Under the pieces are notes generated by a model. That model did not search any database, was not told where the DNA came from, and worked only from the letters and a program-made list of their open reading frames with translations. This document shows positions 20,187-53,134 of a stretch of 64,000 bases of DNA, piece after piece. Positions within the stretch are counted from its first letter, which is position 1. Each line of letters opens with the position of its first letter. The DNA is from Eretmocerus hayati (lineage: Eukaryota; Arthropoda; Insecta; Hymenoptera; Aphelinidae), in NCBI GenBank assembly GCA_029851415.1, contig CM056743.1:34798714-34862713 (forward strand), given 5' to 3'. The position numbers and the translations under genes were made by a program.

Positions 20187-22041
20187 TTATTAAATAACAC
20201 AGGCCCACATAAAGAAAAAAGTACCTGTACCCAGCGACCTGACCCATGTATTTCCACGTAAAATTGTGCGCTGAATTCGAAAATGACATCAGTTTTCACC
20301 GGACACCCACGGATTTTCAAAAAAATCAAGACAACAATTTTTTAAGCTAGATATTGGATTTTCGACCTCGGAATCTGAAAGGGGAGTAAAGGACTCCGCT
20401 CCGAGAGATAGGATTTTGGCTTTCGGTTAACTTTGTCGGGGAAGAAATATGTTGTCAAGCACAAAATTCTGAACAAAAAGTTCAATGGGCTCGAAGACGG
20501 AAAATGGCTAGTTTTTTCAGTACAAATCAAATGAATACCAATAAATGGGAGGCTATGAGGTTATCTAGAACAACAACAAAGGCTTGTCTGCAGCGTTCGA
20601 ATTTGAATGGAAAATGTACAATTTGAGTGAGATGTAGCTAAAAGGTCATCACTTTGGTAATTGAAACATTTTATCTGAAACCTTCGATACAAGAAACAAA
20701 TAAATGCATGCAAGAAAAGTGATAATGCGCGATTGACAAAGAAATCATAACGGCTTGTATTCTCAACAATTACATTTCATTTCAATCAATGTAGCAGCTG
20801 ACGCTGGAGCTAGATCATAAGGCTGTGCTGACTTGATGCAACGAGTACATGATCTTGAGAGCCCAGATATGGGGCGGGAGCGGCTTTTTGACATCAACAT
20901 CATCGCATAGCATGAGGCTCGCGCTTTGAATAGTTGATAAAAGGTGTCCGATAGTGCATGGCTGCAATTAAATTATATGGAATGAATCAAAATTAATCTT
21001 GGATCGCGTGAGACTAGTGTCTGACAAATATTTTGAGGATATGGAAATCGAATATCATATTTCCGTATCTCGAGATCATATCGCGTAAGAGGCTGCGGGG
21101 TCGAGAGCAAGCGACTATCAAAATCGAGCTCGAAAAGTCGAGTGGAGGCTGTTTTTGAGGTATTTCAAGGTCGCTGAACACGAATATGACATTGCCTTGC
21201 CTCCTAATCGTGTTGCGTGGGCGGCTGCGGGGACGGAGGCGCGAATTGACCGAGATCGAAGCTCGAGACTTGAGTAAGGGCGTTTTTGGGGTATTTTGGG
21301 GTCGTTGAGCACGAATTTGAGATCATCCAGCCTCCAAGTCATGTTGCGTGGGCGGTTGGGGGGGGGGTCGAGTAGAAGCACAAATTGACCAAGATTGGAG
21401 TTTGAGAGTTGAGTAGGGGTTGTTTTTAGAGTATTTTGGCATCGCTAAGCACGTATTTGAGATTACACAGTTCCCGAATCGTGTTGAATGGGTAGCTGCA
21501 AGATCAAGGACGCGTGTTGAACTAGATAAAACTGGAAGAGCCGGCGGGGGGGGGGATCCTTGATATCTCGAGATCACTGGACACAAATCTCAGATCACTC
21601 AGCCTCAGAACCGTATTGGGTGGGCGGCTGATGGTGAATTCGATGTGGTTTCCTGACAATGATCATTTCCTGAGATAGAATCTGACCAGGATTGTAAGCC
21701 GAATTAAGACATCGGGACCAGATCACGAGCATACGCCAAGTATCTCCTTTAACCGAGGAATCGAGCGATATCCTATTTATCGAAATTCCGAATCGCTCGG
21801 TATGTAATCATAATCCTCGATCACGGAATAGGCCACAAATAGTTTCAGGCGTGAATCTGCGAGAAAGTGGTGACTGCCAGGAGATTTGACCGTTAAATCT
21901 CTATTCTGCCCATCTTCACATACAGGATCAGATTGGATGTACCGAGAGGCACGATGACTAAACAACGCCCAGAATCACCACGTGATCCAATAGCCTAAGG
22001 ATCGGAAGATATCCCAGGACGTGCGCCCACGTAGCACGCAA

Positions 22042-22250
22042 CGTTTCAGAAACGTTTCAAGAACGTTTCAAATGAAACTTTGAAACGTTTCTTGAGAAGG
22101 TTTCTGGGAAGTTTCCCGTACGTTTCTGAAACGTTTGTATGTCCACATTTTTAAACGTTTCGGTAGCGTTTTGGAAACGTTTCCGGCTCCACATATTATC
22201 CATGCATGCAGATTGGCTTTATGAGGTTTCTCTAGGACGTTTCAGAAACG
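22042..22250. repeat. cluster of GAAACGTTTC palindromes (left arm)
   Basis: The palindromic decamer GAAACGTTTC and near variants (AAACGTTTC, GAAACGTTC) occur about a dozen times in 200 bp, starting right after GCACGC. The cluster is conserved inverted at 46,785-46,984. It might be a multi-site protein-binding region of the element, but that is inference. Confidence 0.75.
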
Positions 22251-23929
22251 TTTAAAAAATGACGTATATTTGGATGGGCACCGTGAGCGGTCGTAGCCGC
22301 CCATTGCTACTATAAGGCGTTTTTTAGCGGATTCCAAGGCAGCGTGTCGCCGTGCAAAATTGTCAACGGCAGGTGACAAAGTTGAAGATGTCTGATGAAA
22401 GATTGGTGATGTCTGGTGCGAGTGAGCAATAATTCTGACTCACGTATGGAGACATTTAATTTATTTGACTAATTCATATGCAAGTATTTCGAATACAATT
22501 AGCCCCGGTTTACGCTTCGGCGAGTCCTCGACATGGATTTTTAAGGATTCGTGAGCTAGCTCAGAAACTCGACACATAATTTAAATGCCATTAGTTCATA
22601 AAACATCCTGATTTCGTTTGGTACATGCGCAAGTAGATAACCTTAGGAATCGCTAGTGACAACATGATGTTCGATGTGTAGGCAAGGGAATATTTGTCAT
22701 CGTGCGTAGTAACGCCAACGATCAAGAGCTACATATTCTCAATTCTCGGGTGGATTTTGGCGCAATCTCAGCCTGAGCGAGTTAGTTTTTGAATGATCAT
22801 TGATTCGTTGCCCGATGATAGTGCGCAAAACCACGTTGCCACAAGTGAAATATCCACTCATTCGCCGAGTTTCTTAGAATGCATTTTCACGCTGGCGATT
22901 CTTCGCCATTTGTGTAAGAGAGAACGACTTATACAACTTTCCCTCACACCAATGACGAAGATCGCTTGCCGCGGCGAAGAATCGCCACCGCGAGAATGCA
23001 GCTTGACTCATAGATAATAGATACGAGAATGAATAGTAGTTTGACTTACTTATATGGGAACAGTATATGTTCTAAAAATTGGGCGATAGTAAACTGGCAT
23101 GTTACGGCCGTCATGGATACTCGAAAATAACTCAGAAGAAATGTTTATTCGTTCACCGATTGGCTCAATTATTAGGTTTATTCGATTACGCCGGTCAGAC
23201 CAACTCAGACTAGGTGTGACAATCGGATTTCCCTTTCTAACTTTATGAGAAAGAGAGAAAGGCCCGTTGATCTCACCAGGTCTGCCCGCCGTAATCGGAT
23301 GAACCTAATATTCACAGCATCAAGGAACGTTAATAGTTCAGCAAATGTAGCCCAATATGAGTAGTGGAAGCAATCACATTAGACGTCAAAAATATTGCAA
23401 ACGCAAATTGCATCATATCTTTTGGAGCGCCGCGCGAAGTTTTCAGCAAAGAAAATCTGAGCAACGTTGTGCAGTAGCAACAAGTTTCACGTTCGTTCAA
23501 GATACAGTTGTATACACTTTACACTCTGTGATTTACAGCCACACGACCTTATACATTATTCTAGTGATATTAGGTTTTCGATATTTATCGATTGATTCAA
23601 CCAAAAGCTGACTTAAACCTACGACAAATTTTTTTCTCGTAAAATTTTTTCCTATGCACTATTAGACACTGTAACTTAGTATGAGTTTGAGCTAGAGCCG
23701 GTACTGCTCTGCCGGATAGTGCTTGCAAGAACCTGCGTGGAACTCCGTAGTAGAAACAAGTAGCCGATTCATCAAAACCCAGCCTCATACAACAACAAGA
23801 TTCTACGTGTCTACAAATATCAGGTCCACGTAAGTTTCTTCAAATGATTCGTCCCAGAGGCTTTTGCCTTCTGCCTCCACCACGTTCTGGGTCCATTGGT
23901 GAGACAATGCATACCCAATTAGCATCACT

Positions 23930-26900
23930 TCAGATAATCCTTCGTCTTGTTTTAGGCGCTGTCATCATTGACCCGGTGGTGCGCCCGCCTTCCCCCATTG
24001 TAGTGGCAATTTCCACCAATTGCCGTCGCAAGCATAGATCTCGCCCTGCTCCTTTTGGGACACCCCTCCACCATTTCATTCCAACATTCTCAGGATCTGT
24101 AAATCGCAAAATGAAAGATGTATTTATTTATTTATCTATTTCAATTAACGGCAAAAAGGCTTCAACGAATTTGTCAACGATTGGCTAGAATAGAGAACAT
24201 TACGAAATGAAACTCATAATAATCTGTGGAAAATTGATTCCCAACTGATGATCATTAATGCAATCCACCATTGCAAACATTCTTATCCATATTCTAATAG
24301 ATTCCGGCTTACTCATTCTTTGAGCTGTATTAATGAATGCTTAGAGAGCTTAGATTACGAGAAGAATAGTTGCTTTCTCCCGGACGTAGTTTGATTTCGC
24401 AAATGTTCTCACTTATTTGATCATCGCTGAACCCATTATCGTATATTATCGTAACCCATTATAATACTACGGCACCGGGCTGCGAATGACAGGCATACGT
24501 AAGGCACTTTGCAAAAGGCATAAATTATAGTATATATTAATCGCACCAAAGGACTGTTTACTCTACAAATTCGGATGCGGAGGTTTGCGCGTTTCACCAA
24601 TCATCCTCAACTTTCAATTAACGAGATGCACTGCAAAACATCACACTACCCCGACCCAAAATAAATTAGCCAACCCGACGTCATCCTACAGGCGTACCCC
24701 CTTCCCCTTATCACACAAACTACAATTTACCTGAAACCGGCATTATAAGAATTGTCACTTCTATGGCATCTTCAATATCATCGCCAGTGCATGGGACTTT
24801 TAGGTAGAACCCCAACCACATCGCTTTCTACGGCATCATCCGCAGAGCCCTGGCACACGGTCATGTGCAACTTGGCGCTGATAGGGTGCGGATTAACGTG
24901 GAGAGCTGACACCATCTTCTGCGTGACCTTCTCGGCATAAGCTGGTTCATCCATGCAACAAGAGATAAGTATATAATTCATTCAACTATCCCTTGCACAT
25001 TATCCAAACTTGATAATACTGATAATACCTCTATCAGGACAATTATCCTCAAGTATCCGCTTCTTTCTCTCCCGTGAAGAGTTCTGGGAGCCGTTGATCC
25101 ATCTTCTTCCTATAAGCATTGCATCGTCCTGATCGCTGTCGTCCTCTGAAGATGTAGCTATTCCAGAATCATTATCACTCGACTTCCACATTGGCGCCAC
25201 TGGCATCAACTCGTCCATGTACCCGGTATCTGCGCAATATAATTGGGTCAGCCAATTGACCTTCGCGTGCCTTGCTCTTATAGTATGAAGAAGATTCATG
25301 TTACCCATCGCTCCTCGCCCGTGTGAAATACTCCGACTACTCGAAGAAGGAGCCTCTCTCTCCTCGTATAAGCCTATACTACGCTCTTTCGCCAATGGCA
25401 TTGGTTCGTCCTTGTCACCATCACCTATTATACCGATTTTATCATTGCACGTCAAAATAAGCATTACATTATTTACCACATCATGAGAAAAAGCGCCGAA
25501 TAATGTGCGTACCTGCCGCGTCCTCGCCATTAATGCTTCCTGCGCTTTTTGCTGCTGCAACGAAACCATCCTCCTCATTGATCCATATGTCTCCGTCGAC
25601 CAGCATCAAGTCACTCGTCTCTCCTGCACCTGAGAATCACAAATCAAGCAAGTACCAAAGCTGATTTCGCAAACATATTCGTTTGCTCAAGCAATCACTC
25701 TTAGAATTTGATGTCACTGACTCTTACCAGCACCATATGCCGCACGACTGTCGTGAAACTCATCATCACTATCCTGAGCACAATGGTCGTTCATGGTGTC
25801 GTCGTCGCTGGTATCATAGTCGGCTGCAATAAGCAGGAGCCTAGCCCGGAGCTCATCCAATCTCTCTGCAAATTAAGAAAAAATTGTGCTTTTATGAGTA
25901 TAGTCGATAATGAGGCGTGGAGGGAGTGTAAATCTCGCCCGATACTGCGAGCGGTGCAAGTGAGGCAAGGGGAGAATACTAGAAATATGATACACAGACG
26001 AGACGCGAAAGATGAGTACTCGCCAAGACCTTTGCCACTGCGCGACGACCGGGTGAGGCGAGAAAAAAAAGTGGTGAGGCAAGAAAAAAAAGGCACGAGC
26101 GGGTGAGGCAAGAAAAAAAAGGCTCGTGCACCGACAGAATTTCTCGATATAAATTGAGATACTGGTATCAGAATAATTACCCTACATGCCAGCAGTCGTG
26201 GGACGCGCCAATTTCCACGGGCATGTGGGGTACTTTCTCCCTGTATCAAGGAGATGGTTACTCTCGTGCCACTCATGATTGTTCTCCGGTAATATCAAAA
26301 TCGACGCGACTGAGAATCCAAGCGATTCAGGAAGATTCGAATGACCTTACCAGTTTGCATGCTCCAACTTCGATCAAAATCCAGCCATCTTCAGCTGGAC
26401 AATGCGAACGATGTGAACATTTTCTGAGCAAAATCTATCTGACATCAGGTAAGCAAAATCAAACGACGAAAATAATCCGCATTTTAGAACGTCCAGCTAT
26501 GCCACAAGTTCCTCGAACAGTCAGTTTTGATTAGAGAATCTCGAGCGATGCCAGAGCTACGCGAACTCCTTATCGAGAGATTGACGGGAGGCACAACAAA
26601 TAAGTACAAAAGCTTCCGCTGATGCACGCGATATACCAGTGAGGCACAAGAAATAAGTGCCAACGTCCATTGCCCTGACCTTTGCTGTGTCACGTCTACC
26701 ATACTATCAGGTTGTGATTTTCGGTCCGTTACATATTCTGAGACAACCTTGAAAAAATTCTGGATTCTAGGACGTTCAGCGATGCCAGGATTCCCTCAGA
26801 AAGTCAGTTCGAATTAAATAATCACGAGCCATGCATAGCCAGAGCTACGCGAACATCTTATCGAAAGCTTGACGCGAGGCACGACAAACAAGTACACAAG

Positions 26901-27855
26901 CTCCCACTGCTGCACGCGATATACCTGTGAGGCACGAGAAATAAGTGCCACCGCTCATTGCGCTCACCTTTGCTGAGTCACATCTACCATACTATCAGAT
27001 TTCAATTTTCAGTTTGTTACATATTTTAAGACAACCTTGACAAAAATCCGGATTTTAGGAAGTTCAGCTATGCCACAATTTCCTCAGAAATTCAGTTTGA
27101 ACTCAAAAATCTCGAGCCATGCATAGCCGGAGCTACGCGAACTTCTTATCAAAAGGTTGACGCGGGGCACGACAAAAAAGTACACAAGCTTCCGTTGCTG
27201 CACGCGATATACCAGTGAAGCACGAGAAATAAGTGGCAACGTTCATTGCGCTCACCTTTGCTGTGTCACATCTACCATACTATCAGATTCCAATCTGTTA
27301 CATATTCTAAGACAACCTCGGAAAAATTCCGAATTTTAGGACGTTCGGCTATGCCACAAGTTCGTCGAGAAGTCAGTTTGAATTGAAGAAGTTCGAGCCA
27401 TGCATAGCCAGAAATACGCGAATTTCTTCTCAAAAGGTTGACGCGAGGCACGACAAAAAAGTACACAAGCTTCCGCTGCTGCACGCGATATACCAGTGAG
27501 GCACGAAAAATAAGTGCCAACGTTTATTGCGCTCACCTTCGCTGTGTCACATCTACCATACTATCAGATTGTAAATTTCAGTCTGTTGCATATTTTAAGA
27601 CAACCTCGAAAAAAATTCGGAATATAGGTCGTTCAGCTATGCTTCACCTGCTGAGTCGAGGATTTCTTCAAAATCCATCAGCCGGGCACGTTCTGGGTGC
27701 TGCCCTAGGCGCGCCAATCTTTCTTGATCACGAGAACTCGCATAAATCGGCCACCAATATCTCCGCGTTCCTCGTGCTCCATCAGAACTCTCAAACCACG
27801 ACTCCGGGACAATCCGCAACTCATTTCTGCACCTTATAAGGAAGAATCGCTTCAT
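23930..27855 (-). CDS. arm gene of the giant element, 7 exons, unknown function
   Basis: Exons: 27,648-27,855; 25,728-25,865; 25,513-25,629; 25,305-25,424; 25,029-25,229; 24,731-24,941; 23,930-24,096. Every intron is phase 1 with GT/AG borders (donors GTGAAG, GTAAGA, GTACGC, GTAACA, GTATTA, GTAAAT). Exon 1 starts MKRFFLIRCRNELRIV, followed by ESWF and RYWWP; exon 2 continues ERLDELRARLLLIAADYDTS. This opening faintly recalls the N-terminal region of insect DUF4806-type proteins, a weak resemblance only. The middle is acidic and Ser-rich (SSEDDSDQDDAM) and then basic (SRERKKR). The C-terminus (DPENVGMKWWRGVPKGAGRD) is not recognised. Exon 6 needs one frame change near 24,800 (before CTGDDIEDAIEV), so this copy may be slightly damaged. 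Intron 1 holds a tandem array of about 289-bp units. Confidence 0.65.
26440..27640. repeat. 289-bp tandem array, left arm (about 5 units)
   Basis: The junction phrase CAGCTATGCCACAAGTTCCTC and the block ACAAGCTTCCGCTGCTGCAC recur at steps of about 280-290 bp (near 26,490, 26,771, 27,060, 27,340, 27,629). The array sits between exons 1 and 2 of the arm gene. Open frames of about 60-85 residues within units are by-products of the repeat. Confidence 0.85.
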
Positions 27856-29047
27856 CGTGTTGGATCACAGTGCACTACCAATATCAAAAACTAGGCGCGA
27901 TCTAGCCCGAAGCTCAGTCTGACCCTATTAGTCTGCAGTTATCGAGAAATAGTAAAACGCTCCTACACGCTCTTCCACGTACTGATGGCACACCGCCGCA
28001 TAAAGGACTGCAGTGCACATGGGCCACCGCCGCTCAGGGCCCTGTCAGCCAATCACAGCGCGTCGCTCCGTGGGCCTTTCCCCGTACTATTTCCCTTTCT
28101 GTCTTTTTACGCATCCCATCCGTAGCACCTATACAGGATCTGGAAAGTAAACAAACACAGATCCTCGCACGTGCGTTCTCTACGCTTCTCTTATCTGGTA
28201 AATCTTGGCCCGACTTCCTCATCCTTTCTTTCCCACATGGCCTTTCGCCCTTGTGCCTCGTCTTTTTTCTTTTTTTTTTCGTTTCCTCAATCACTTTCTC
28301 TTGCCGATTTTCTCTTAACTAACACACACCACATCGCACTTCTTATTTCTCAAGGCCACTTTTCAAGTAAGCCATTCACTCCCGTCCCTCATCACATTGC
28401 ACGGAAAACACCACACATTCGTATGATCATAAAGCTAATGTATATACCATCTCGGTTCCTTTACACTCGCTTTTACACAGGTCACGAAAATCTTGGGATC
28501 ATAATATGTATGAGTTCGGTTCCATGGAGAATTTGGAAAAACAATACCAACACCAAACGTAAAGATAATTCCCAATTCGTCATCTTTCTCTGCTAAAAAC
28601 TTTGGCTGCGTATGTTCTCATGCCCCAAAATACCCGTAATTTTGACGTAGAATAATAATAAAAGTGTGGGTCGAATTTAAAAACTGTGTACACTCCGCGC
28701 CAATGAATACTTTCCAGAACACTGAAATATAACACTGAAATATAATCTGTATCGATCGTCTAGACAATGTTCTGAATCGAATCTATTCGATTGAAGTTGA
28801 TTCACGAATGTTCGAAGTAAGAAATAATCCGTACATGTCGTTCTAAAACCGGATACCTCGGCTTGGAAAAGAGTGGCACCACTTTTTTAACATGTTTTCA
28901 AGGTCTAAGAATCACATGAAACCCATTTCAGACGTGTGCGATGAGAAAATTTTCTTCTTTTTCCAGAGGGTCAATAGTTAAAAGGTCCATGGAAACCCTC
29001 ATATATGAGTATGAAATATTTACTACTCAATGGATTTATCTTTGCAG

Positions 29048-30225
29048 GTGACAGTGTCGAAGGAGTACTCGATCAATCTAAAAAAGGGCGTGAGGCAGCC
29101 CTACAGTGAGCAGTGTGTTGGTGCGGAGGCTGCAGAAGTCCGGGAGAGAATGCTTGGGCAAAAACCGATCGCCGTTCGGGAATCAGGCGAGACAGATTCG
29201 GAATTCAGTTTCCGGGTCCACTGTCTTGCCTTCGACAACAATGTCGCCAAGAAACATACGTGTTATTGCCGGGACCAAGACTCCGTTAAAGATGCCAGCA
29301 TGTGCCTGATGGACGAGTTCGACTCGGTCATCAAACCACCCAAAAAACGATCGAGAAAGGAAGTGCACCGGGGCGTCAATACTTCTATGAGGTATTTTGG
29401 CGCGCCCGGGAGTCGTACGTGTTGGCACGCAGAGAATGGCGGATTCAAAAGCTGCAATCGCCACTTGGAGGGTGTGAAAAGTGCTGGGCCACGATCGACC
29501 CGGCCGATTACCCCAAGCTAGTGGATTGCTTAGAAAAGCACGGAAAAAATATAAAAGGCAGCGCCCTGTTCCACCAGAGCAGCGTGAGCATCGATCCGCG
29601 ATTGTTGCAGACATGGGGTATCAAGGTGAGATTTTTTTTGATTTTTTTTTTAATTTTTTTTATTTAAGCAAGTGGAACCTCATAGAGAGATTATTTTGCA
29701 TTCAAGGTGAGATACTTCGTGTAGCACCCGGGAGACTTTGTGTTTATCGGCGCCGGCATTCTTCATGCTGTGGTAAACGTTGGCTTTAACAATGCCATAG
29801 CAATGAACGTCGTCACCCGGGCTGATGCACATAATGAGGATATCTGCCGGAAGTATTGCCATGGATGCAGCGAGGAGGAGATAGGCAGGAAGCCACGTGA
29901 ATTCTACGAGCTGCAGAAGAAGGTCAAGGGCCGGATCATCTTCTCGCGGAAGGGGAAGCACGTGTACCCAACGTGCAACGTGGAGTTCGTGCGGAAAGCT
30001 CAGTTCGATGCTCACGTGCTTAAAGAGCACGATCTGAAAATCCACACGTGCCGCTTCAACGCTTGCGGAATCTCATTCAAGACCGTCTCATCACGAGACT
30101 CGCACGAACGGCGAGTGCACAAACAGCTTGATGAAGAGGTGCCGTGCACTGTAGAAGGATGCACGAAAAAAATGCGCAAGCGGAACATGGGACGCCACTT
30201 GAGAACCTGCCATCCCGGAGAATAG
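29048..30225 (+). pseudogene. JmjC-domain protein with C2H2 zinc fingers, broken
   Basis: Exon 29,048-29,625 follows an acceptor (CTTTGCAG); intron 29,626-29,706 (81 bp); exon 29,707-30,225 ends TAG. The JmjC core is readable: GVNTSMRYFGAPGSRTCWHAE gives the HxE metal ligands (H codon 29,426, E codon 29,432), then SCNRHLEG, KCWATIDPAD, IDPRLLQTWGIK, VRYFV, HPGDFVFIGAG, and the distal His in HAVVNVGFNNAIAMN. A C2H2 region follows: CRFNACGISF..H....H and CTVEGCTKKM..H...CH, plus a first finger that keeps FDAHVLKEH but has Tyr where its first Cys belongs. Known JmjC proteins with this fold are Fe(II)/2-oxoglutarate histone demethylases; plant REF6 has a similar order. Two lesions: a one-base loss in the A run at 29,477-29,480, and TAG at 29,722-29,724 where Gln is usual. 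The 5' exons were not found. Confidence 0.82.
29626..29706 (+). other. 81-bp intron with duplicated splice junction
   Basis: The 11-base string CAAGGTGAGAT spans the donor (29,622-29,632) and recurs across the acceptor (29,703-29,713). Removing 29,626-29,706 restores ATC AAG GTG AGA TAC in frame through a conserved JmjC strand. The intron is T-rich. Confidence 0.75.
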
Positions 30226-30229
30226 GTGA

Positions 30230-30645
30230 GAAGCACTATAATACTTCTTTGACCCGGTTATGTGTCCCTAGCCCGGATATGAAGTTGGTAAAACAATTTA
30301 TGAACTTTATAAAACTTCTGTAAAAGTTCATAAAAAGTTTATTCAAGTTCAGAAAATGTTCCGTTTCCAAGTGCAGGATGGTCTCATTTGTTTTGTTCAT
30401 ATAAACTTTTCCTGAACATCAAGTTCAGAAAAACTTGATACGAACAAAAAACTTTTTACGTGAGTGGTCGGCCCATGATGAACTTAACATGATTATAAGA
30501 TACGCTGCTAAAAGAGATTAGCACAATGCTTTCTCCTAGCCAAATGTGCACGCATGGTCAGTCCAATTCATGAAAAACTTGAGCAGACTGATTCAATACT
30601 AAATGAGGTCGCAATTTTTCCAGATATTATTTATTTTTCCCTCGC
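30230..30645. other. anonymous spacer with short GTTCATAAA-like repeats
   Basis: Several copies of AAGTTCA/TTCATAAA-type words lie at 30,290-30,450 and form weak local inverted repeats. There is no gene. Confidence 0.4.
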
Positions 30646-31800
30646 CCAAGATCAAATATTGACTATCTTCAATATATGATGGGAGGAACGGCCGAATTGC
30701 GAGGCATTCCTCCTCGAAGCAAGATTTCTCGACAGAGCTTCCGTCACTCTGATTGTCTGGGGAACGTACAGTCACCGGACAAAAATTCTGTGCAAATCTG
30801 AAAGAGCTTTTTCGTTCCTTAGCTCCTGCTCAGAACCCTTGGACTGGATTACATTTCCGTAGGTGTAAGGATAAAATTACGATTATGAAGACCCCACAAA
30901 CGGTATGATTCCGATTAAAACAATAGCCCAGGGACAAAAAGCTTTTTCAGATTTGCACAGAATTTTTATCCGGTGAGTGTACATCCCCTATAGAGCCACA
31001 GAGCCATCGGGAAGATATCAAGAACCCAACTTCAATATTATTATTAGTCTCGAATGCAGGGCTGATGGTAGTTTCCATCCTTGTCTCTACACCGTACTGA
31101 ATTATTTGAACTGTGAAAAGATGTGTGATATTAAGTGTGTGTTTCGCCCTGGTCTCTCTCTTGGGCTCGTCAGTGAGACGAAGAGAGACCTGTCTCAGAC
31201 ACTAGTGTAAATCGGGTGGATTGACATCGAGTTGAAGAAGGGTTAACATTGAAAGTTTGGTAAAACAACCATCAATTGAGATTGCCATCTAGTGATAAAG
31301 ACACGAAGCAGATGTTAAGCTTCGTGCGGTAAATGACTTTATACGGCCTCATGTCGTTTGGTGGAATAATGAAAATTATACCCTCGCTATGTTTCAATAT
31401 ATGATGGGAGGAACGGCCGAATTGCGAGGCATTCCTTATCGAAGCAAGATTCCTTGACAGAGCTCCCGTCACTCTGATTTTCTGGGGAACATACATCCCC
31501 TATAGAGCCACAGAGCCATCGGGAAGATATCAAGAACCCAACTTCAATATCATTATTAGTCTCAAATGCAGAGCTGATGGTAGTTTCCATCCTTGTCTCT
31601 TCACCGTACTGAATTATTTGAACTGTGAAAAGATGGCTCTGTGGCTCTATAGGGGATGTATGTTCCCCAGACAATCAGAGTGACGGAAGCTCTGTCAAGA
31701 AATCTTGCTTCGATAAGGAATGCCTCGCAATTCGGCCGTTCCTCCCATCATATATTGAAACATAGCGAGGGTATAATTTTCATTATTGACTATCTTCATT
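30640..31800. repeat. three-copy direct and inverted duplication
   Basis: A segment beginning ATATGATGGGAGGAACGGCC occurs near 30,675 and 31,399 in the same orientation, and inverted at about 31,632-31,765 (CCGTTCCTCCCATCATATAT). Each copy includes GCGAGGCATTCC and TCCCCTATAGAGCCACAGAG. The first copy is interrupted by a TA-flanked foldback at 30,769-30,979; the second lacks it and serves as the empty site. The short frames on either strand are mirror translations of one repeat. Confidence 0.85.
30769..30979. mobile_element. mariner-type MITE, 211 bp, TA duplication
   Basis: Ends CAGTCACCGGACAAAAATTC and, inverted, CACTCACCGGATAAAAATTC. It is flanked by TA (30,767-30,768 and 30,980-30,981). 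The homologous segment near 31,488 reads AACATACATCCCC without the insert, so insertion at TA is shown within the window. The ends fit Tc1/mariner-type elements; there is no coding capacity. Confidence 0.85.
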
Positions 31801-32169
31801 ATCAACTTGATGATACGATTGTTTCTTTCATTGTTCTTTACATCTTTTGCGTACTTATTAGTGCGTTAAATTAATGATAGGGCTCGGTTCAATGAATTAA
31901 CAGATCGATATGATGCTTAATTACGAATGTAATTTTATCTGATGCCTTCATTATTTCACTAGAACAAGATGATTACCACGATCTCCGACTATTACAATCT
32001 CCCTGATATTCTACATTTCGTTGTAAATACATTGTTGAACCATTTTTAATTTCCAAGCATCCAGTTTTTTATCACTCGCCAATTACTTTAGCATAATCTT
32101 TGATATCCCGTAACACCATGCACCACTTGGTTGATGTGGAAATTTGGTACACTCAGTTTGAAAATGTTT

Positions 32170-35415: not shown

Positions 35416-35420
35416 GATTA

Positions 35421-35710: not shown

Positions 35711-35718
35711 TTATACTA

Positions 35719-38368: not shown

Positions 38369-38637
38369 TACGGATGGGATGCGTAAAAAGACAGAAAGGA
38401 AAATAGTAGGGGGAAAGGTTCATGGAGCGACGCGCTGTGATTGGCTGACAGGGCCCCGAGCGGCCGTGGCCCATGTGCACTGCAGTCCTTTATGCGGCGG
38501 TGTGCCATCAGTACGTGGAAGAGCGTGTAGGAGGGTTTTACTATTTCTCGATAACTGCAGAGTAATAGTGTCAGATTGAGCTTCGGGCTAGATCGCGCCT
38601 AGTTTTTGATATTGGTAGTGCACTGTGATCCAACACG

Positions 38638-41990: not shown

Positions 41991-44779
41991 TATGGTAGAT
42001 GTGACTTAGCAAAGGTGAGAGCAATGAGCGGTGGCACTTATTTCTCGTGCCCCACTGGTATATCGCGTGCAGCAGCGGAAGCTTCTGTCCTTTTTTGTCG
42101 TGCCTCGCGTGAAACTTTCGATAAGAATTTCGCGTAGCTCTGGCTATGCATAGCTCGAGATTCTGGAAATCCACACTGACTTCCTGAAGAAATTGTGGCA
42201 TAGCTGAACTTCCTAGAGGCCGGTTTTTTGTCAAGGTTGTCTTAAAATATGTAACGGACCGAAAATTGCAATCTGATAGTATGGTAGATGTGACACAGCA
42301 AAAGTGAGAGCAATGAGCGGTGGCACTTATTTCTCGTGCCTCACTGGTACATCGCGTGCAGCAATGGGAGCTTGTGTACTTTTTTGTCGTGCCTCGCGTC
42401 TACCTTTCGATAAGAATTTCGCGTAGCTCTGGCTGTAAATGGCTCGAGGTTTTGGAAATTCAAACTGACTTTCTGAGAAAATTGTCGCATAGCTGAACCT
42501 CCCAGAATCCGGTTTCTTGTCAAGGTTGTCTTAAAATATGTAACGGACCGAAAATTGCAATCTGATAGTATGGTAGATGTGACACAGCAAAAGTGAGAGC
42601 AATGAGCGGTGGCACTTATTTCTCGTGCCTCACTGGTACATCGCGTGCAGCAATGGGAGCTTGTGTACTTTTTTGTCGTGCCTCGCGTCTACCTTTCGAT
42701 AAGAATTTCGCGTAGCTCTGGCTGTAAATGGCTCGAGGTTTTGGAAATTCAAACTGACTTTCTGAGAAAATTGTCGCATAGCTGAACCTCCCAGAATCCG
42801 GTTTCTTGTCAAGGTTGTCTTAAAATATGTCACAAGCTAAAAATTGAAATCTGATAGTATGGTAGATGTGACTCAGTAAGGGTGAGAGCAATGAGCGGTG
42901 GCACATAGTTCTCGTGCCTCACTGGTATATCGCGTGCAGCAGCGGAAGCTTGTGTACTTTTTTGTCGTGCCTCGCGTCAACCTTTCGATAAGAATTTCGC
43001 GTAGCTCTGGGCGTGCATGGCTCGAGGTTCTGGAAATCCAAACTGACTTTCTGAGGAAATTGTGGCATAGCTGAACTTCCTAAAGGCCGGTTTTTTGTCA
43101 AGGTTGTCTTAAAATATAACACAAGCTAAAAATTGGAATCTGATAGTATGGTAGATGTGACTCAGCAAAGGTGAGAGCAATGAGCGGTGGCACATAGTTC
43201 TCGTGCCTCACTGGTGTATCGCGTGCAGCAATGGGAGCTTGTGTACTTTTTTGTCGTGCCTCGCGTCCACCTTTCGATGAGAATTTCGCGTAGCTCTGGC
43301 TGTAAATGGCTCGAGGTTTTGGAAATTCAAACTGACTTTCTGAGGAAATTGTGGCATAGCTGAACTTCCTAAAGGCCGGTTTTTTGTCAAGGTTGTCTTA
43401 AAATATAACACAAGCTAAAAATTGGAATCTGATAGTATGGTAGATGTGACTCAGTAAGGGTGAGAGCAATGAGCGGTGGCACATAGTTCTCGTGCCTCAC
43501 TGGTATATCGCGTGCAGCAGCGGAAGCTTGTGTACTTTTTTGTCGTGCCTCGCGTCAACCTTTCGATAAGAATTTCGCGTAGCTCTGGCCGTGCATGGCT
43601 CGAGGTTCTGGAAATCCAAACTGACTTTCTGAGGAAATTGTGGCATAGCTGAACTTCCTAAAGGCCGGTTTTTGGTCAAGGTTGTCTTAAAATATAACAC
43701 AAGCTAAAAATTGGAATCTGATAGTATGGTAGATGTGACTCAGCGAAGGTGAGAGCAATGAGCGGTGGCACATAGTTCTCGTGCCTCACTGGTGTATCGC
43801 GTGCAGCAATGGGAGCTTGTGTACTTTTTTGTCGTGCCTCGCGTCCACCTTTCGATGAGAATTTCGCGTAGCTCTGGCTGTAAATGGCTCGAGGTTTTGG
43901 AAATTCAAACTGACTTTCTGAGAAAATTGTGGTATAGCTGAACCTCCCAGAATCCGGTTTCTTGTCAAGGTTGTCTTAAAATATGTCACAAGCTAAAAAT
44001 TGAAATCTGATAGTATGGTAGATGTGACTCAGCAAAGGTGAGAGCAATGAGCAGCGTGCCTCACTGGTATATCGCGTGCAGCAACGGGAGCTTCTGTACT
44101 TCTTTGTCGAGCCTCGCGTCAACCTTTCGATAAGAAGCTCGCATAGCTCTGGCTATGCATGGCTCGTGATTATTTGATTCAAACTGACTTTCTGAGGCAA
44201 TTGTGGCATAGTTAAACGTCCTAGAACCCGTAAGTTTCTTAAGGTTGTCTTAAAATATGTAACGGACCGAAAATCGCAACCTGATAGTATGGTAGATGTG
44301 ACACAGCAAAAGTGAGAGCAATGAGCGGTGGCACTTATTTCTCGTGCCTCACTGGTATATCGGGTGCAGCAACGGAAGCTTGTGTACTTTTTTGTCCTGC
44401 CTCGCGTCCACCTTTCGATAAGAATTTCGCGTAGCTCTGGCTGTAAATGGCTCGAGTTTCTAGAAATTCAAACTGACTTTCTGAGAAAATTGTGGCATAG
44501 CTGAACCTCCCAGAATCCGGTTTTTGGTCAAGGTTGTCTTAAAATATGTCACAAGCTAGAATTTGAAATCTGATAGTATGGTAGATGTGACACAGCAAAA
44601 GTGAGAGCAATGAGCGGTGGCACATAGTTCTCGTGCCTCACTGGTATATCGCGTGCAGCAGCGGAAGCTTGTGTTTTTTTGTCGTGCCTCGCGTGAACCT
44701 CTCGATATGAATTTCGCGTAGCTCTGGCTATGCATAGCTCGAGATTCTGGAAATCCAAACTGACTTTACTGAAACCTAC

Positions 44780-46998
44780 CTAAAACTAGACGAAAGAGCA
44801 TCTGAAGTGATGCTAATTGGGTATGCATTGTCTCACCGATAGACCCAGAACGTGGTGGAGGCAGAAGGCAAAAGCCTCTGGGACGAATCACTTGAAGGAA
44901 CTTACGTGGACCTGATATTTGTAGACACGTAGAATGTTGTTGTTGTATGAGGCTGGGTTTCGATGAATCGGCTACTTGTTTCTACTACGGAGTTCCACGC
45001 AGGTTCTTGCAAGCACTATCCGTCAGAGCTGTACCAGCTTTAGCTCAAACTAATACTAAGTTACAGTGTCTAATAGTGCATAGGAAAAAATTTTACGAGA
45101 AAAACATTTGTCGTAGGTTTAAGTCAGCTTTTGGTAAAATCAATCGATGAATATCGAAAACCTAATACCACTATAATAATGTATGTGGTCGTGTGGCTGT
45201 AAATCACAGAGTGTAAAGTGTATACAACTTGATCTTGAACAAACGTGAAACTTGTTGCTACTACACAACGTTGCTCAGATTTTCTTTGCTGTGTTACTTG
45301 TTCCTACTACGGAGTTCCACGCAGGTTCTTGCAAGCACTATCCGGCAGAGCAGTACCGGCTCTAGCTCAAACTAATACTAAGTTACAGTTTCTAATAGTG
45401 CATAGGAAAAAATTTTACGAGCAAAAAATTTGTCGTAGGTTTAAGTCAGCTTTTGGTCAAATCAATCGATAAATATCGAAAACCTAATATCACTAGAATA
45501 ATGTATGTGGTCGTGTGGCTGTAAATCACAGAGTGTAAAGTGTATACAACTTCATCTTGAACAAACGTGAAACTTGTTGCTACTGCACAACGTTGCTCAG
45601 ATTTTCTCTGCTGAAAACTTCGCGCTGCGCTCCAAAAGATATGATGCAATTTGCGTTTGCGATATTTTTGACGTCGAATGTAATTGCTTCCACTACTCAT
45701 ATTGGGCTACATTTGCTGAACTATTAACGTTCCTCGATCCTGTGAATATTAGGATCATTCGATTACGGCGGGCAGACCTGGTGAGATCAACGGGCCTTTC
45801 TCTCTTTCTCATAAAGTTAGAAAGGGAAATCCGATTGTCACACCTAGTCTGAGTTGGTCTGACCGGCGTTATCGAATAAACCTCATGATTGAGCCAATCG
45901 GTGAACGAATGAACATTTCTTCTGAGTTGTTTTCGAGTATCCATGACGGCCGTAACATGCCAGTTTACTATCGCCTAATTTTCAGGACATATACTGTTCC
46001 CATATAAGTAAGTCAAACTACTATTCATTCTAGTATCTATTATCTATGAGTCAAGCTGCATTCTCGCGGTGGCGATTCTCCGCCGCGGCAAGCGATCTTC
46101 GTCATTGGTGTGAGGGAAAGTTGTATAAGTCGTTCTCCGTTACACGAATGGCGAAGAATCGCCAGCGTAAAAATGCAGCCTAAGAAACTCGGCGAACGAG
46201 TGGATATTTCACTTATGGCAACGTGATTTTGCGCACTATCATCGGGCAACGAATCAATTATCATTCAAAAACTAACTCGCTCAGGCTGAGATTGCGCCAA
46301 AATCCACCCGAGAATTGAGAATATGTAGCTCCTGATCGTTGGCGTTATTACGCACGATGACAAATATTCCTTTGCCTACACATCGAACATCATGTTGTCA
46401 CTAGCGATTGCTAAGGTTATCTACTTGCGCATGTACCAAACGAAATCAGGATGTTTTATGAACTAATGGCATTTAAATGATGTGTCGAGTTTCTGAGCTA
46501 GCTCACGAATCCTTAAAAATCCATGACGAGTACTCGCCGAAGCGCAAACCGGGGCTAATTGTATTCGAAATACTTGCATATGAATTAGTCAAATAAATTA
46601 AATGTCTCCATACGTGAGTCAGAATTATTGCTCACTCGCACCAGACATCACCAATCTTTCTAACTTTGTCACCTGCCGTTGACAATTTTGCACGGGGACA
46701 CGCTGCCTTGGAATCCGCTAAAAAACGCCTCATAGTAGCAATGGGCGGCTACGACCGCTCACGGCGCCCATCCAAATGTACGTCATTTTTGAAACGTTTC
46801 TGAAACGTCCTAGAGAAATCTCATAAAGCCAATCTGCATGCATGGATAATATGTGGAGCCGGAAACGTTTAAAAATGTGGACATACAAACGTTTCAGAAA
46901 CGTACGGGAAACGTCCCAGAAACCTTCTCAAGAAACGTTTCAAAGTTTCATTTGAAACGTTCTTGAAACGTTTCTGAAACGTTGCGTGCTACGTGGGC
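44780..46998. repeat. right-arm block matching 22,027-23,940, with internal duplication
   Basis: This is the inverse of the left-arm segment from the arm-gene stop to the GAAACGTTTC cluster. It contains two direct copies of a 300-bp piece (GGAGTTCCACGCAGGTTCTTG near 44,989 and 45,311) where the left arm has one. Parallel open frames in both arms translate the same repeat; I see no independent evidence that they are genes. Confidence 0.75.
46785..46984. repeat. cluster of GAAACGTTTC palindromes (right arm)
   Basis: Inverse copy of the cluster at 22,042-22,250, with the same dense run of AAACGTTTC words ending at GCGTGC. Confidence 0.75.
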
Positions 46999-47465
46999 GA
47001 TTCTGAAATCTTAGCTCTGTGGCAAAAAACTCAAGAACCTACCCGACTCTTTCTCAAGATTTTTGATCACACGCTGAGATTTCAGGATCACACTCCCTCA
47101 AACACCACACGGTCAAGCTGCTTTGAAATCGTGCTCTGGCCACGGTCGTTGTATTTTAGTCATGCTCATCGCAGGATCAGATGATACTCCCTGTGAAATC
47201 GGCCAGAATAGTAAAATCAGCTCTCAAATCTCCTTGCAGTCATCGCCCTCCCATAGATTCACGCCCGAAAAGATTCGTAGTCTATACCAATATCAAGAAT
47301 TGTGATCTCATAGCTAGAGGATCGTAGTTTCAATCCCCAGAAAATTGCTCGATCTTTGGACCACCAAACACACCCGGCTTAGTCTCGAGGTATGGTGACA
47401 GATAACAGGTTTATCCGAATATGCTGGTCGGAGCGCCCCGAACTCTGGGATCTCTCTCTCTCTCT

Positions 47466-47885
47466 CTTTTTTTCTTTGAAGGTGGTTGTAGGGCGAATAC
47501 GCTGCGACGTACGAAGGAGAGGCACCGGTCAGCCAAACACGGCTGGCCAGCACCTCCCCAACAGTCCCGGGCTGGAATCCGCATCGATACGGCCATCCGA
47601 ACCGGGTAAACCCTCTCTTCCTTGTCCGTTGGCGCCGGCCATTGGACAAGGGAGAGACCCACCAAATTACCAATCCGGCCCCGGCACCGCGTGAGCATTA
47701 CTTCAGGGCCGGCGGCGTCTCGCGCTCAGGATCGAGCGTCTCTCTTCTCACGACTCGCAGGTGTTGTTTTCCTTTCTTCGATCTTCTTCCATCTCTTCAT
47801 TCTTCATTCTTCTTTCTTCGTTCTTCGATCTTCGATCCTCTCTCTTCTTCCTTCCCTCTTCAGTCCTCTCTCTCTTTCTCTCTCT
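47466..47885 (-). mobile_element. LINE 3' UTR fragment, copy C
   Basis: On the minus strand it carries the same UTR organisation as copies A and B: a purine-rich stretch, then a GC-rich part, ending in an interrupted poly(A) (T-rich 47,466-47,476). The sequence is clearly diverged from copy B. Copy B's poly(A) abuts its 5' side, so the two tails are stacked head to tail. Confidence 0.65.
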
Positions 47886-48637
47886 TTTTTTTTTTTTTTT
47901 TAAGGTGGTTAGAGGGCAAAATCTGCCTCAGGATCCCTCGGATCCGTCCCCAGACACCGGACTGGTTCAGCTTACGCGGACTACGCATAGCCCACGCAGG
48001 CCATACCAGGCGGGACACGGGTTTGGGTGGGGCCCACTGAGAGGTGGGCCCGGCCGTGTAATATCCCTCTCCCCTCGATGTCCGATACCTAGGGCATCGG
48101 GCAATCAAGAAGGAGATCCACCTGCATCTACCATCTCATCCCGGAACCGCGTGAGCATTATTTCAGGATGAGCGGCATGTCTCGCGCTCGATTGCGAGCG
48201 TTCCTCTTCTCCATCTTCTCTCTTCGGCCACTTGTCTGCATCTTCTATCTTCATTCTTCATTGTTCCCTCTCTTTCTTCTTTCTTCTCTCTTCTTTCTTC
48301 TTTCTTCCCTCTTCAGTGCATCAGGTTCCTCCTGGAATCATTTGGGCCTCTTCTGTTTCAATCAGCAGAGTCACTGTAATTCGCCTGCTTCGAGGCGCCT
48401 CACTTCCCTCTTTTCCTCCTCTTTGCGGGTCATCACCAGCTTGATGTATCCGGTGAGTCTATCCCATGTCTCCTGGTTGCGGAGCAAGTACGGGACGAGA
48501 TTCTCAGGTGTTAGTTGAGCACCCAGCCATTCATCCAGCTCGGCGCGCTCTCTCCGGGTTTCGCGGCACTTGAACAGGGCATGTTCGGCGTCATCCTATT
48601 CGTCCCCGCATGACTGACATGCTGGGGTCATCCTCTT

Positions 48638-48650
<13 letters not shown>
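47886..48650 (-). mobile_element. LINE 3' fragment (R1/jockey-like), copy B
   Basis: Minus-strand reading from about 48,640: a C-x2-C-G type knuckle (CQSCGDE), a stop codon, then DDAEHALFKC, then the same C-terminal tail as copy A ending RRLEAGELQ with the stop at 48,371-48,373. The purine-rich 3' UTR ends in poly(A) (T run 47,886-47,902). The knuckle followed by EH..F.C is a typical LINE ORF2 C-terminus. It is 5'-truncated next to a CT tract. Confidence 0.82.
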
Positions 48651-48679
<29 letters not shown>

Positions 48680-48700
48680 TCTCTCTCTCTCTCTCTCTTA
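48647..48700. repeat. (CT)n microsatellite
   Basis: About 25 CT units with one CA interruption, next to the truncated 5' side of LINE copy B. LINE copy A also sits beside a CT/AG tract. Confidence 0.95.
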
Positions 48701-50301
48701 CTCATTGCGTTTGAAAAGAGAAATTCGGGGGTAAGAGCTCTCCGAGCGCTCCGAACTAGCATAATCAGGTGAATTTAATGTGAGTCTTCCCACGACTTGG
48801 GATCAGATTTCATCCGTGGGGATGTCCAGATTCACCAAAGGAACACTCGAATCTCCTACCCGTCAGTATCGAGTAGTAGATTCACGTCCGCCAATGTATT
48901 CGAATCGAATCCTTCTCGAGATTTTTGACCACATAGTTAGGATTTCAGAATCGGACGTCCAAGGTTATCTCCCGATCCCTAGGCTATTGGATCACGTGTT
49001 GGTTCTGGGCCGTTGTATGGTCACCATGCTTCTCGATACATGAGATCAGATTCTGCTTGTAAAGATGGCCAGGATAGAGATTCAATGCTGGAATCTCCTT
49101 GCAGTCAACACCTTTTCCTAGATTCACGCCCGAAAAGATTTGTAGTCCATTCCGTTATCAATATATGTGATCACATAGCTAGAGGATCGTAGTTCCCGTG
49201 CCCAGAGTATTGCTCGAATTTTCGGACACTGAATACGCTATGCTTAGGTTCGTGGTAAGGTGACCGAATAACGAAAGTCATCCCACTACTTGGGATCAGA
49301 TTTAACCCGTGGGGATGTCCAGATTCAGCAAGGGAAAACTCAAATCTCCTAACCGTTACTATTGAGAAGTAGATTCACGCCCGTGAATCTATGAGAATAG
49401 GCTCCTCCTCGAGATTTATGATCACAGAGTTAAGATTCCATAATCGCACGTCCTGGGATATCTCCTGATCCCTAGGCTATTGGATCATGTTATATTTCTG
49501 GGTGGTTGTATGGTCACCATGCTTCTCGGTACATGGGATCAGATTTTGCTTGTGAAAACAGTCAAAATAGAGATCTAACGCTTGAATCTTCTTGCAATCA
49601 TCACCCTCTCGTAGATTCTCGCCCGCAACGATTTGTAGTCCATTGCATCATTGAGGATTATGATCACATAGCTAGAGGATCAGAGTTCGAATCCCTAGGA
49701 TATTGCACGGTGCTCCATCCCACAAACACAGTTGGCTTAGGCTCGTGGTATGCGTGATTTTTGCCCGTCAATATATGAGAATCGACTGCTTTTTAAGATT
49801 TCCGGTTACAGAGCTGAGATTTCAGTATCACACTCCCTGAGTCATTACCCAATCCCGCTGCTATCACATCACGCTCTGGTCATGGTCGTTGTGAAGTGGT
49901 CATGCTTCGCGCATGATGAGATGAGACTCCGCCTGGAAAATTGGCCAGAATAGAGATTCAGCTCTCGAATCTCCTTGCAGTCACCACTCTCTCGCAGATT
50001 CACGCCTGAAACTATTTGTGGCCTATTCCGTGATCGAAAATTGTGATTACATACCTAGCCATTCGGAATTTCGATAAACAGGATATCGCTCGATCCCTCA
50101 GTTAAAGGAGATACTTTGCGTATGCTCGTGGTCTGGTCCCGATGCCTTAATTCGGCTTACAATCCTGGTCAGATTCTATCTCAGGAAATGATCATTGTCA
50201 GGAAACCACATCAAATTCACCATCACAGCCGCCCACCCAATACGGTTCTGAGGCTGAGTGATCTGAGATTTGTGTCCAGTGATCTCAAGATATCAAGGAC
50301 C

Positions 50302-50313
50302 CCCCCCCCCCCC
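50302..50313. repeat. C homopolymer tract
   Basis: A run of about 12 C in the right arm; a similar run of about 18 C lies at 50,503-50,520. Matching G runs in the left arm lie near 21,545 and 21,358. Tract lengths differ between arms. Confidence 0.85.
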
Positions 50314-51549
50314 TCACCGCCGGCTCTTCCAGTTTTATCTAGTTCAACACGCGTCCTTGCTCTTGCAGCCACCCATTGAACACGATTCGGGAGCTTTGTA
50401 ATCTCAAATACGTGCTTAGCGATGCCAAAATACTCCAAAAACAACCCCTACTCAACTCTCAAACTCCAATCTTGGTCCAGTCCATTCGTGCCTCTACTCG
50501 ACCCCCCCCCCCCCCCCCCCAACCGCCCACGCAACATGACTTGGAGGCTGGACGATCTCAAATTCGTGCTTAGTGACCCCAAAATAGCCCAAGAACACCC
50601 TTACTCAAGTCTCGAGCTTTGATCTCGGTCAATTCGCGCATCCGCCCCCGCAGCCGCCCACGCAACACGATTAGGAGGCAAGGCAATGTCATATTCGTGT
50701 TCTGCGATCTTGAAATACCTCAAAAACAGCCTCCACTCGACTTTTCGAGCTCGATTTTGATAGTCGCTTGCTCTCGACCCCGCAGCCTCTTACGCGATAT
50801 GATCTCGAGATACGGAAATATGAGATTCGATCTCCATATCCTCGAAATATTTGGCAGACACTAGTCTCGCGCGATCCAAGATTAATTTTGATTCATTCCA
50901 TATAATTTGATTGCAGCCATGCACTATCGGACACCTTTTATCAACTATTCAAAGCGCGAGCCTCATGCTATGCGATGTTTTTGATGTCAAAAAGCCGCTC
51001 CCGCCCCATATCTGGGCTCTCAAGATCATGTACTCGTTGCATCAAGTCAGCACAGCCTTATGATCCAGCTCCAGCGTCAGCTGCTACATTGATTGAAATG
51101 AAATGTAATTGTTGAGAATACAAGCCGTTATGATTTCTTTGTCAATCGCGCATTATCACTTTTTTTGCATGCATTTATTTGCTTCTTGTATCGAAGGTTT
51201 CAGATAAAATGTTTCAATTACCAAAGTGATGACCTTTTAGCTACATCTCACTCAAATTGTACATTTTCAATTCAAATTCGAACGCTGCAGACAGGCTTAT
51301 GTTGTTGTTCTAGATAACCTTATAACCTCCCATTTATTGGTATTTATTTGATTTATACTGGACAAACTACCCATATTCCGTCTTCGACCCCATTGAACTT
51401 TTTGTTCAGAATTTTGTGCTTGACAACATATTTCTTCCCCGACAAAATTAACCGAAAGCCAAAATCCTATCTCTCGGAGCGGGGTCCTTTTACGTCCGAA
51501 TATGGCCTTTGGAAATTTTTCATTTTTGATGGTATTTCTGATTCGGTAC

Positions 51550-52870
51550 CCAGAGTAGCAATCGTGATCTGGAACTCAATATGGTACTCGTAATCTAGGA
51601 GTCAATGTAGCACTCGTGATCGAGATCTCCATGTGGTACTCGTAATCGAGAACTCAACGTGGTACTCGTGATCCGGAACTTAATGTGGTACTCGTAATCA
51701 AGAACTCAATGTGGTACTCGTTTTCGAAAACTCAATGCGGCACTCGCGATCCAGAACTCACAAGGGGAGTCCGGAATCTCCGGGTCCTGAATTCTCACCA
51801 AAATTTTTTTTACAGTTTCGTACCACCTAGAATATGAAGAACCCAAAGCAACTCTGTCAAATGGACCTCCCGTTCAGAGCTACAGCCTATGACATTAGTA
51901 TTGCCCATATAGGCCCATATTGAAAAGTGATATATATATAGATATACTAGCAATGTTGGCGTTTCTGGCTGTAGCTCAGAACAGAAGACCCATTTGACAG
52001 AGTTGCTTCAGATTCTTCATATTCTGGGTGGTACAAAACTGTGGAAAAATTTTGGTGAGATTTCAGGACCTGGAGACTCCGGACTCTCCTTGTCAGTATG
52101 GTACTTGTGATCTAGAACTCAATGTGGTACTATACGAGTTGAATATTAACCATCAAAGACGAAAAAATCTACCAAAATCACTCATGATATCAATGTGGTA
52201 CTCGTGAACGAGAACTCAATGTGCTACTCGTGATCTAGAACTCGATGTGGTACTCATGATCGAGAACTCAATGTGGTACTCGTGATCGTTAGAACTCATT
52301 CACGTGTTTGAGGGATCGTGATCGAGTTTACAACAAGAGTACCACTCCGAGTTCTCGAACCACATTGAATTCTGGATCACGAGTACCACATTGAGTTCCA
52401 GATCACGAGTATCACATTGAGTTCTAGATCACGAGTACTATATTAGGTTCTGGATCACGAGTACCACATTGAGTTCTAGATCACGAGTACCACATTGAGT
52501 TCTGGATCGCGAGTACCACATTGACTTTTTGAACGACATTGAGTTCTGGTTCACAAGTACCACAATGAGTTCTGGAGCACGCGTACTATATTGAGTTCTC
52601 GTTCGAGTACCACATTAGGTTCTAGATCACGAGTACCACATTCAGTTCTAGATCACGAGTACCACATTTAGTTCTGGATCGCGAGTACCACATTGACTTT
52701 TCAAAAAACGAGTACCACGTGAAGTTCTGGATCACGAGTACCACATTGATTTCTGAATCACGAGTACCACATTGAGTTCTCGATCACGTGTTCCACATTG
52801 AGGTTTCGATCACGAGTACCCCATTGAGTTCTAGATCACGAGTACCACATTGAGCTTTAGATCACGAGTG
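51550..52870. repeat. GTACCACATTGAGTTCT satellite in both orientations
   Basis: Units of about 24-30 bp combine GATCACGAGTACCACATTGA with GTTCT. From 51,550 to 51,760 and 52,095-52,290 they read in one orientation (ACTCAATGTGGTACTCGTGA); from 52,310 to 52,870 in the other. More than 30 units are visible. The block is absent from the left arm, so it arose or inserted on the right after the arms formed. Confidence 0.9.
51761..52092. mobile_element. foldback element, 332 bp, TCA duplication
   Basis: Ends CAAGGGGAGTCCGGAATCTC and, inverted, CAAGGAGAGTCCGGAGTCTC. TCA lies at 51,758-51,760 and 52,093-52,095. Inner arms pair over about 120 bp (CTCTGTCAAATGG with CCATTTGACAGAG). It is inserted in the satellite. 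Confidence 0.85.
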
Positions 52871-53134
52871 CCCCTCACTGGATCAGAAATACAACAAAAA
52901 ATGGAAAATCTTGAAAGTCCATATTTGGACGTAAAATTCTCTCCCCTCTCAGAATCCGAGGTCAAAAATCCAGTATCTGCTTTCAAAAATCTTTTGTTCG
53001 GATTTTCTCAAAAATTGGGGGGTGTCCGGTGGAAACTGATGTCATTTTCGTATTCAGCGCACGATTTTACGTAGGAATTCACAGGTCCGGTCTCTGGGTA
53101 TGGGTACTTTTTTCTTTGTGTGGGACTGTGCAAT

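Follow-up and report, generated by a model that had tools for sequence, protein, structure and literature searches.

The subject of this analysis is an inverted-repeat unit of 33 kb (20198-53130) in a window of 64,000 nucleotides, the whole stretch of DNA that was analyzed, from contig CM056743.1 of the hymenopteran parasitoid Eretmocerus hayati. By sequence comparison, the unit is composed of two nested palindromic elements of different age: an older, satellite-cored element of 1.8 kb, termed A, and a giant palindrome, termed G (20388-51490), which to all appearances sits inside the left arm of A. G is judged with moderate confidence to be a non-autonomous, foldback-like DNA transposon that landed in A. 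The published assembly of this species measures 692.1 Mb and is based on PacBio HiFi reads, with 53.58% repeats and 32.39% unclassified (PMC10482854). Coordinates of all features are collected in Table 1.

Divergence within the inverted repeat

Self-BLAST of the window gave inverted matches between 20198-28727 and 37284-53130 that are far above chance expectation, the main ones having approximately 82-97% identity and E values as low as 0. The giant inverted repeat is a real and old biological structure. A preliminary description of this DNA had stated that the arms are real, that they differ by point changes, separate insertions, satellite growth and deletions, and that they do not represent a folded read. 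All of this was borne out: the four main blocks of the arms are 3.9% diverged (175/4507), and separate insertions, satellite and tandem growth and a probable deletion of 2.5 kb distinguish the two arms. A folded-read artefact was therefore ruled out, the arms being 3-5% diverged with insertions of their own.

Divergence was compared in seven blocks, the rate for G being pooled from four of its five blocks; the fifth, a 113-bp tandem block, was left out of the pool, and satellites lie in no G block. It can be observed that the four main blocks are 95.4-96.8% identical, with Kimura two-parameter distances (K2P) of 0.032-0.047, whereas in the outer 190 bp the count of differing sites is 32/190 (Fisher p = 1.9e-11 against the pooled G rate). 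The outer 190 bp are as diverged as the arms of the 26-bp-satellite palindrome (44/263, p = 1.0), with K2P of 0.194 for the termini and 0.193 for these core arms, whose inverted identity is 81.6%. The step in divergence is located at 20387/20388. Moreover, the 1446-bp satellite palindrome lies exactly between the right terminal part and the giant right arm, and when G is excised in silico the two arms of A align as one 461-bp stretch that is 81% identical and contains 13 gap positions, of which 6 fall at the junction. Because of this equal divergence and of the closure upon removal of G, the terminal parts and the satellite palindrome are taken as one older element, to which the outer CAC ends belong; the giant repeat is thus 20388-51490, and both of its outer ends coincide with the borders of a single insertion into A.

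The alternative is a single 33-kb element with CAC ends, in which the satellite palindrome (51491-52936) would be a later insertion into the right arm. The right arm also closes neatly without that palindrome, and the outermost flanks TAA/CAA agree at two of three letters, though this is the chance level. However, divergence in the terminal 190 bp is four to five times that of the arms and matches that of the palindrome, so that this alternative is regarded as very improbable. The preliminary description had treated 20198-53130 as one element and the CAC ends as its termini, and neither claim survives the divergence comparison. Its suggestion of a mobile element without a recognizable transposase stays the best reading, but the unit concerned is a nest of two. 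The case shows that nested palindromes can be mistaken for a single element.

The ends of A, CACAGGCCCACA and CACAGTCCCACA, align with the ends (CACCGG...) of three small palindromes at 11381-13808, 35421-35710 and 35719-36020. CAC ends and a 3-bp target duplication are features of the CACTA family. The ends of A begin with CAC, and the flanking triplets of the small relatives are TAA/TAA, TTA/TTA and CTA/TTA, two of the three being perfect; these ends and flanks point to CACTA for the relatives, and A, whose own flanks agree at chance level, may be CACTA-like as well. Compared with miniature inverted-repeat transposable elements (MITEs) of the CACTA/EnSpm type, the likeness lies in the CAC ends and the two perfect triplets, while the flanks of A itself and of the third relative are imperfect and no transposase was seen. 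Small hairpin elements abound in the window, at 31365-31787, 32401-33497, 35421-35710, 35719-36020 and 40075-41990, and their ends are mostly dissimilar.

Arms, arm gene and centre of G

The ends of G, AAAGGACTCCGCTCCGAGAGATAGG and AAAGGACCCCGCTCCGAGAGATAGG, are of the AAAGGAC[T/C]CC... type and mirror each other right up to the border. Long terminal inverted repeats (TIRs) form most of the element, and the left arm looks to be the more complete one. Arrays of a 288/289-bp satellite occur in both arms. The right arm also carries a 322-bp duplication and an insertion of about 0.5 kb (about 37888-38369) with ends like ACTCTGAGAGAAGAATA. The region 46999-48952 was considered as one TIR transposon and dropped, diverged copies of the ~493-bp unit being present there; it is read as a tandem array with a young insertion. 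A dispersed element of ~0.7 kb with long GA/CT runs is present at 12068-12962 and 47866-48698, and is taken as young because the two places are 97.5% identical. The 2.5 kb without counterpart in the right arm was most likely lost by deletion, since two other loci join the same exons. The G end gave 0 matches in viral contigs, and an Rfam scan of the window gave 0 matches at the gathering score.

In the left arm there is a probable gene of six exons, modelled under the guidance of QAD02_003271 (P0004). A 201-codon frame on the minus strand of this arm found three gene models: QAD02_001503 (P0003), which is the local locus, QAD02_003271, which lies elsewhere on a contig equal in length to this one and taken to be this chromosome, and QAD02_009488 (P0005), for which the contig measures 122.6 Mb. 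Homologue searches were limited to proteins sharing exact words, and all finds are from E. hayati, the models of the window included; the frame returned 3 proteins out of 120 candidates, and a profile of the arm protein returned only the same three among the 7998 best-sharing candidates that were scored. P0004 and P0005 place their first exon at 27855-27649 and resume at 25869, descending from there (as far as 24723 in QAD02_003271), and all six left-arm exons show GT/AG at their junctions. The 288-bp satellite sits in the intron between exons 1 and 2. Two points speak against the six-exon model: QAD02_001503 is without exon 1, begins in exon 2 and runs on through one modelled intron, and towards its end the left-arm frame is out of register with QAD02_003271.

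Between the arms, exon 1 displays 6 amino-acid and 3 silent codon changes, and no constraint is therefore visible. Among its 69 residues the left arm differs from P0005 at 3 and from the right arm at 6, and the counts for P0004 are 8 against the left arm and 11 against the right. The arm protein has no Pfam family above cut-off, its profile gave 0 PDB matches up to E = 1, and none of 13 pattern matches in viral contigs was related. Its first 90 residues may resemble the start of insect DUF4806 proteins.

The centre between the arms contains a JmjC-domain gene, as the preliminary description had indicated in speaking of a chromatin-type gene; this gene is broken and was read piecewise, an X marking its breaks. 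The model QAD02_001504 is identical to the query protein at 340/340 ungapped positions, with 24 gap positions. One exon, at 25987-26076, falls in the left arm of G, and the others are within 29048-30222; this automatic model spans left arm and centre, and the gene would belong with G if transcripts agree. Against PDB chains the matches are weak (zinc-finger GLI, 4.3e-4; demethylase UTY, 0.038). The search for homologues yielded 2 proteins out of 1015 word-sharing candidates, the related model being QAD02_019890 (P0002) on a 205-Mb contig, with 73% identity over 61% of the query. We infer a gene of KDM4 type, because the best PDB match of P0002 is KDM4D (4.6e-11). At what we take to be the position of the metal-binding motif, P0002 reads HVG and the window HAE, and P0002 may be inactive as well. 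None of 13 pattern matches of the JmjC protein in viral contigs was related.

Beside the right arm stands a copy of the inner end of the arms, 36 bp in length (E 1.4e-7 against the whole window), which belongs to a 47-bp hairpin, 37202-37248 / 37273-37319, of 85% identity with a short loop. This suggests that the arms of G once met at the hairpin. Furthermore, the 8.5-kb centre may be a late insertion into G, because the copy stands at its far edge. The sequence following the inner ends differs between the two sides. The earlier placement of the centre and its JmjC gene in the interior of the element stands as regards the gene, which is present, and is weakened by the possible late arrival of the centre. 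A further version, in which G is a foldback element with a complete spliced gene in each giant TIR and a KDM4-type histone demethylase in its loop, is given little credence; if true, an animal transposon would have brought along an anti-silencing enzyme of its own, with an accessory gene present in duplicate within its ends. As a separate observation, a diverged tandem repeat at 8688-10222, outside G, shares sequence with 32138-32407 beside the 1.1-kb palindrome of the centre.

Table 1. Positions of elements A and G and of their parts within the window
Feature	Position	Strand	Remarks
Element A, left terminal part (ends CACAGG..)	20198..20387	+	83.2% to 52936-53130, K2P 0.194; aligns with nearby MITE ends
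Element A, remainder	51491..53130	+	26-bp-satellite palindromic core 51491-52936, then right terminal part to 53130
Giant palindrome G	20388..51490	+	inverted ends AAAGGACTCCGCTCCGAGAG / AAAGGACCCCGCTCCGAGAG
G-type end form			AAAGGACTCC
G left arm	20388..28727	+	8340 bp
Left-arm-only stretch, 2.5 kb	23957..26466	+	without counterpart in right arm
Arm gene, exons 2-6 (probable)	24781..25865	-	guided by P0004; absent from right arm
288-bp satellite, left arm	26467..27642	+	4.1 copies; in intron 1 of arm gene as modelled
Arm gene, exon 1 (start ATG; probable)	27649..27855	-	tblastn of P0004, P0005; donor site present
Centre, 8.5 kb	28728..37283	+	mosaic of small palindromes around JmjC pseudogene
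Broken JmjC gene, C-terminal C2H2-like fingers (QAD02_001504)	29048..30225	+	frame shift near 29.47 kb, in-frame stop near 29722
Copy of arms' inner end (28692-28727), 36 bp	37202..37237	+	beside right arm; 33/36 identical
G right arm	37284..51490	-	14.2 kb; enlarged by tandem growth and insertions, most likely reduced by one deletion
Arm gene, exon 1, right-arm copy	38638..38844	+	tblastn of P0004, P0005
289-bp satellite, right arm	38850..40074	-	4.3 copies
Palindromic element, 1.9 kb, in right-arm satellite	40075..41990	+	TAT on both flanks
289-bp satellite, right arm	41991..44772	-	9.7 copies; recent copies, smallest p-distance 0.010
Right-arm tandem growth, ~493-bp unit	47044..50095	+	interrupted by young dispersed element, found again at 12272-12962

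Proposed origin of G

The following course of events is proposed. G would originally have been a giant palindrome, its 8.3-kb arms meeting at a short loop, which entered chromosomal DNA as one unit via its inverted ends, the landing site being the left arm of the older, 1.8-kb, putatively CACTA-like palindrome A. Movement would have been by cut-and-paste, with a transposase supplied in trans that recognized the AAAGGAC-type ends, and the internal satellites and repeats of the arms perhaps served as extra binding sites for it. Both arms would at first have carried the arm gene; subsequently the right arm would have decayed and the centre would have been inserted. Related arm-gene models at two other loci argue for the mobility of G.

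Several results weigh against this interpretation. Exact matches at the borders of G reach at most 2 bp (TA or GT) within 4 bases and 3 bp within 8. In a random control of 3000 position pairs scanned over 4 bases, 97% displayed at least 2 bp and 67% at least 3 bp; a 2-bp match is thus common among random pairs, and no target duplication of G is demonstrated. At the offsets tried, the borders displayed neither a 7-10-bp duplication of foldback type nor one of ~9 bp as in Mutator or Mutator-like elements (MULEs). Six-frame Pfam scans of 20388-28727, 28728-37283 and 46999-48952 revealed no transposase domain, and the earlier statement that no transposase is seen holds for these scanned parts. The same stretches gave no match to the PolB and retroviral-type integrase of Polinton/Maverick elements, to a MULE transposase, or to the THAP domain and P-type transposase of Galileo/P. 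Moreover, the other loci hold one arm-gene model each and not two as full arms predict, the structure prediction for the arm protein was unusable (mean pLDDT, the predicted local distance difference test, 36.9), and in the fifth block, where 21913-22025 is compared with one tandem copy, identity is 79.6% over 113 bp. This last block belongs to the ~493-bp array and could represent paralogous copies.

On the same evidence G was rejected as a Polinton or MULE, the scanned stretches containing no such genes and the borders no fitting target duplication. Weak Pfam matches (ORF29, PRNT, DUF3915, ActD, P22_Cro) are below the curated cut-off and were taken as chance. Outside G, FLYWCH is matched at 4594-5367 (+) together with MULE, the latter weakly and under the cut-off; this may be a fragment of a Phantom-like Mutator transposase. 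At 14265-15641 (-) a trypsin-type serine protease gene, which probably belongs to the host, is present in pieces.

The lack of a target duplication beyond chance and of a transposase in the scanned parts, together with the short hairpin at the likely old centre, is also what would be expected if G were immobile, host DNA having been duplicated in place, in inverted orientation, when synthesis folded back at a small hairpin. Such a process, however, would not yield arms that end symmetrically at both borders of the break in A, and related arm genes are present at two other loci; this origin is considered improbable.

A composite is rather unlikely, yet deserves more weight: two oppositely oriented copies of a gene-bearing element of 8.3 kb, X, would stand around unrelated DNA. 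The single arm-gene model at each other locus agrees with this, as do the different sequences beyond the two inner ends and the first exon, in which the left arm is nearer to P0005 (3/69) than to the right arm (6/69), so that the arms are not mutually closer. But a single insertion into A is bordered on both sides by the outer ends of G, and an earlier meeting of the arms is suggested by the hairpin next to the right arm. In addition, P0004 is further from either arm (8/69 and 11/69) than the arms are from each other; exon 1 also offers few residues for comparison, and decay of the right-arm exon may have quickened once that arm had suffered its deletion. The non-autonomous foldback-like transposon is retained as the preferred explanation.

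Comparison with known elements

The preliminary description found no match among Polintons, CACTA, MULE or mariner elements. As far as the genes of Polintons and MULEs are concerned this agrees with our scans, but precedents for the foldback form exist in Tetris and in the longest Galileo copies. Foldback elements are described from flies, nematodes and plants (PMC4079207, PMC3169594). The form is reported to have arisen with different transposases (PMC3169594), and so does not name the enzyme. Within the open-licence literature, no palindromic giant transposon of Hymenoptera was found, inverted-repeat transposons of Eretmocerus were represented by MULE work alone, and no paper joined a JmjC gene with a DNA transposon, terminal inverted repeat or capture; for JmjC with transposable elements or parasitoids, none among the matches listed was fitting by title or start of abstract. 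In a survey of arthropod MULEs the longest TIR is given as 1193 bp in the text and 1527 bp in a table row (PMC13359780).

Tm1 of Meloidogyne is reported as a Mutator/foldback element with a 9-bp target site duplication (TSD) and a Phantom-type transposase (PMC3169594). It resembles G in its composite foldback TIRs, which enclose another gene in a non-autonomous copy, whereas neither that TSD nor that transposase was found at G, the FLYWCH and MULE fragment lying elsewhere in the window. Fungal DNA transposons are described as carrying TET/JBP dioxygenases (PMC12730594). Here, too, an epigenetic-type dioxygenase gene stands near or within a DNA element, although it is a broken JmjC gene in an animal and its membership in G is only putative. 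The JmjC gene raises the question of whether animal DNA transposons carry histone demethylases in a manner similar to these fungal elements.

Tetris of Drosophila virilis is described as a non-autonomous foldback with a TSD of 8-10 bp, TIR ends shared with the MITE DAIBAM, and complete copies without conserved open reading frames (PMC4079207). G is likewise a putative non-autonomous foldback, and the sharing of ends with MITEs recalls element A and its small relatives. Unlike Tetris, G has no TSD beyond chance, and its left arm contains gene-like spliced exons. The longest Galileo copy reported from D. willistoni, 9021 bp, consists almost only of TIRs (4246 + 4680 bp), and Galileo is assigned to the P superfamily with a 7-8-bp TSD (PMC4168063); its internal TIR repeats have been proposed to aid transposase binding (PMC3688188), as is suggested above for those of G. 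Long, internally repetitive TIRs are common to both. In contrast, the 8340-bp left arm of G is almost double the length of the longest Galileo TIRs that we found published (4.2-4.7 kb), and neither a 7-8-bp TSD nor a P-type transposase was seen in G.

Tetris and the longest Galileo copies are thus the nearest kinds to G, which would be distinct from both in arm length, in the exons within its arm and in having no 7-10-bp target duplication. In a repeat-rich genome, paired arms of such size would probably give rise to inversions and satellite arrays, and a palindromic arm of 8.3 kb with gene-like exons and an intronic satellite would widen the range of size and content among foldback elements.

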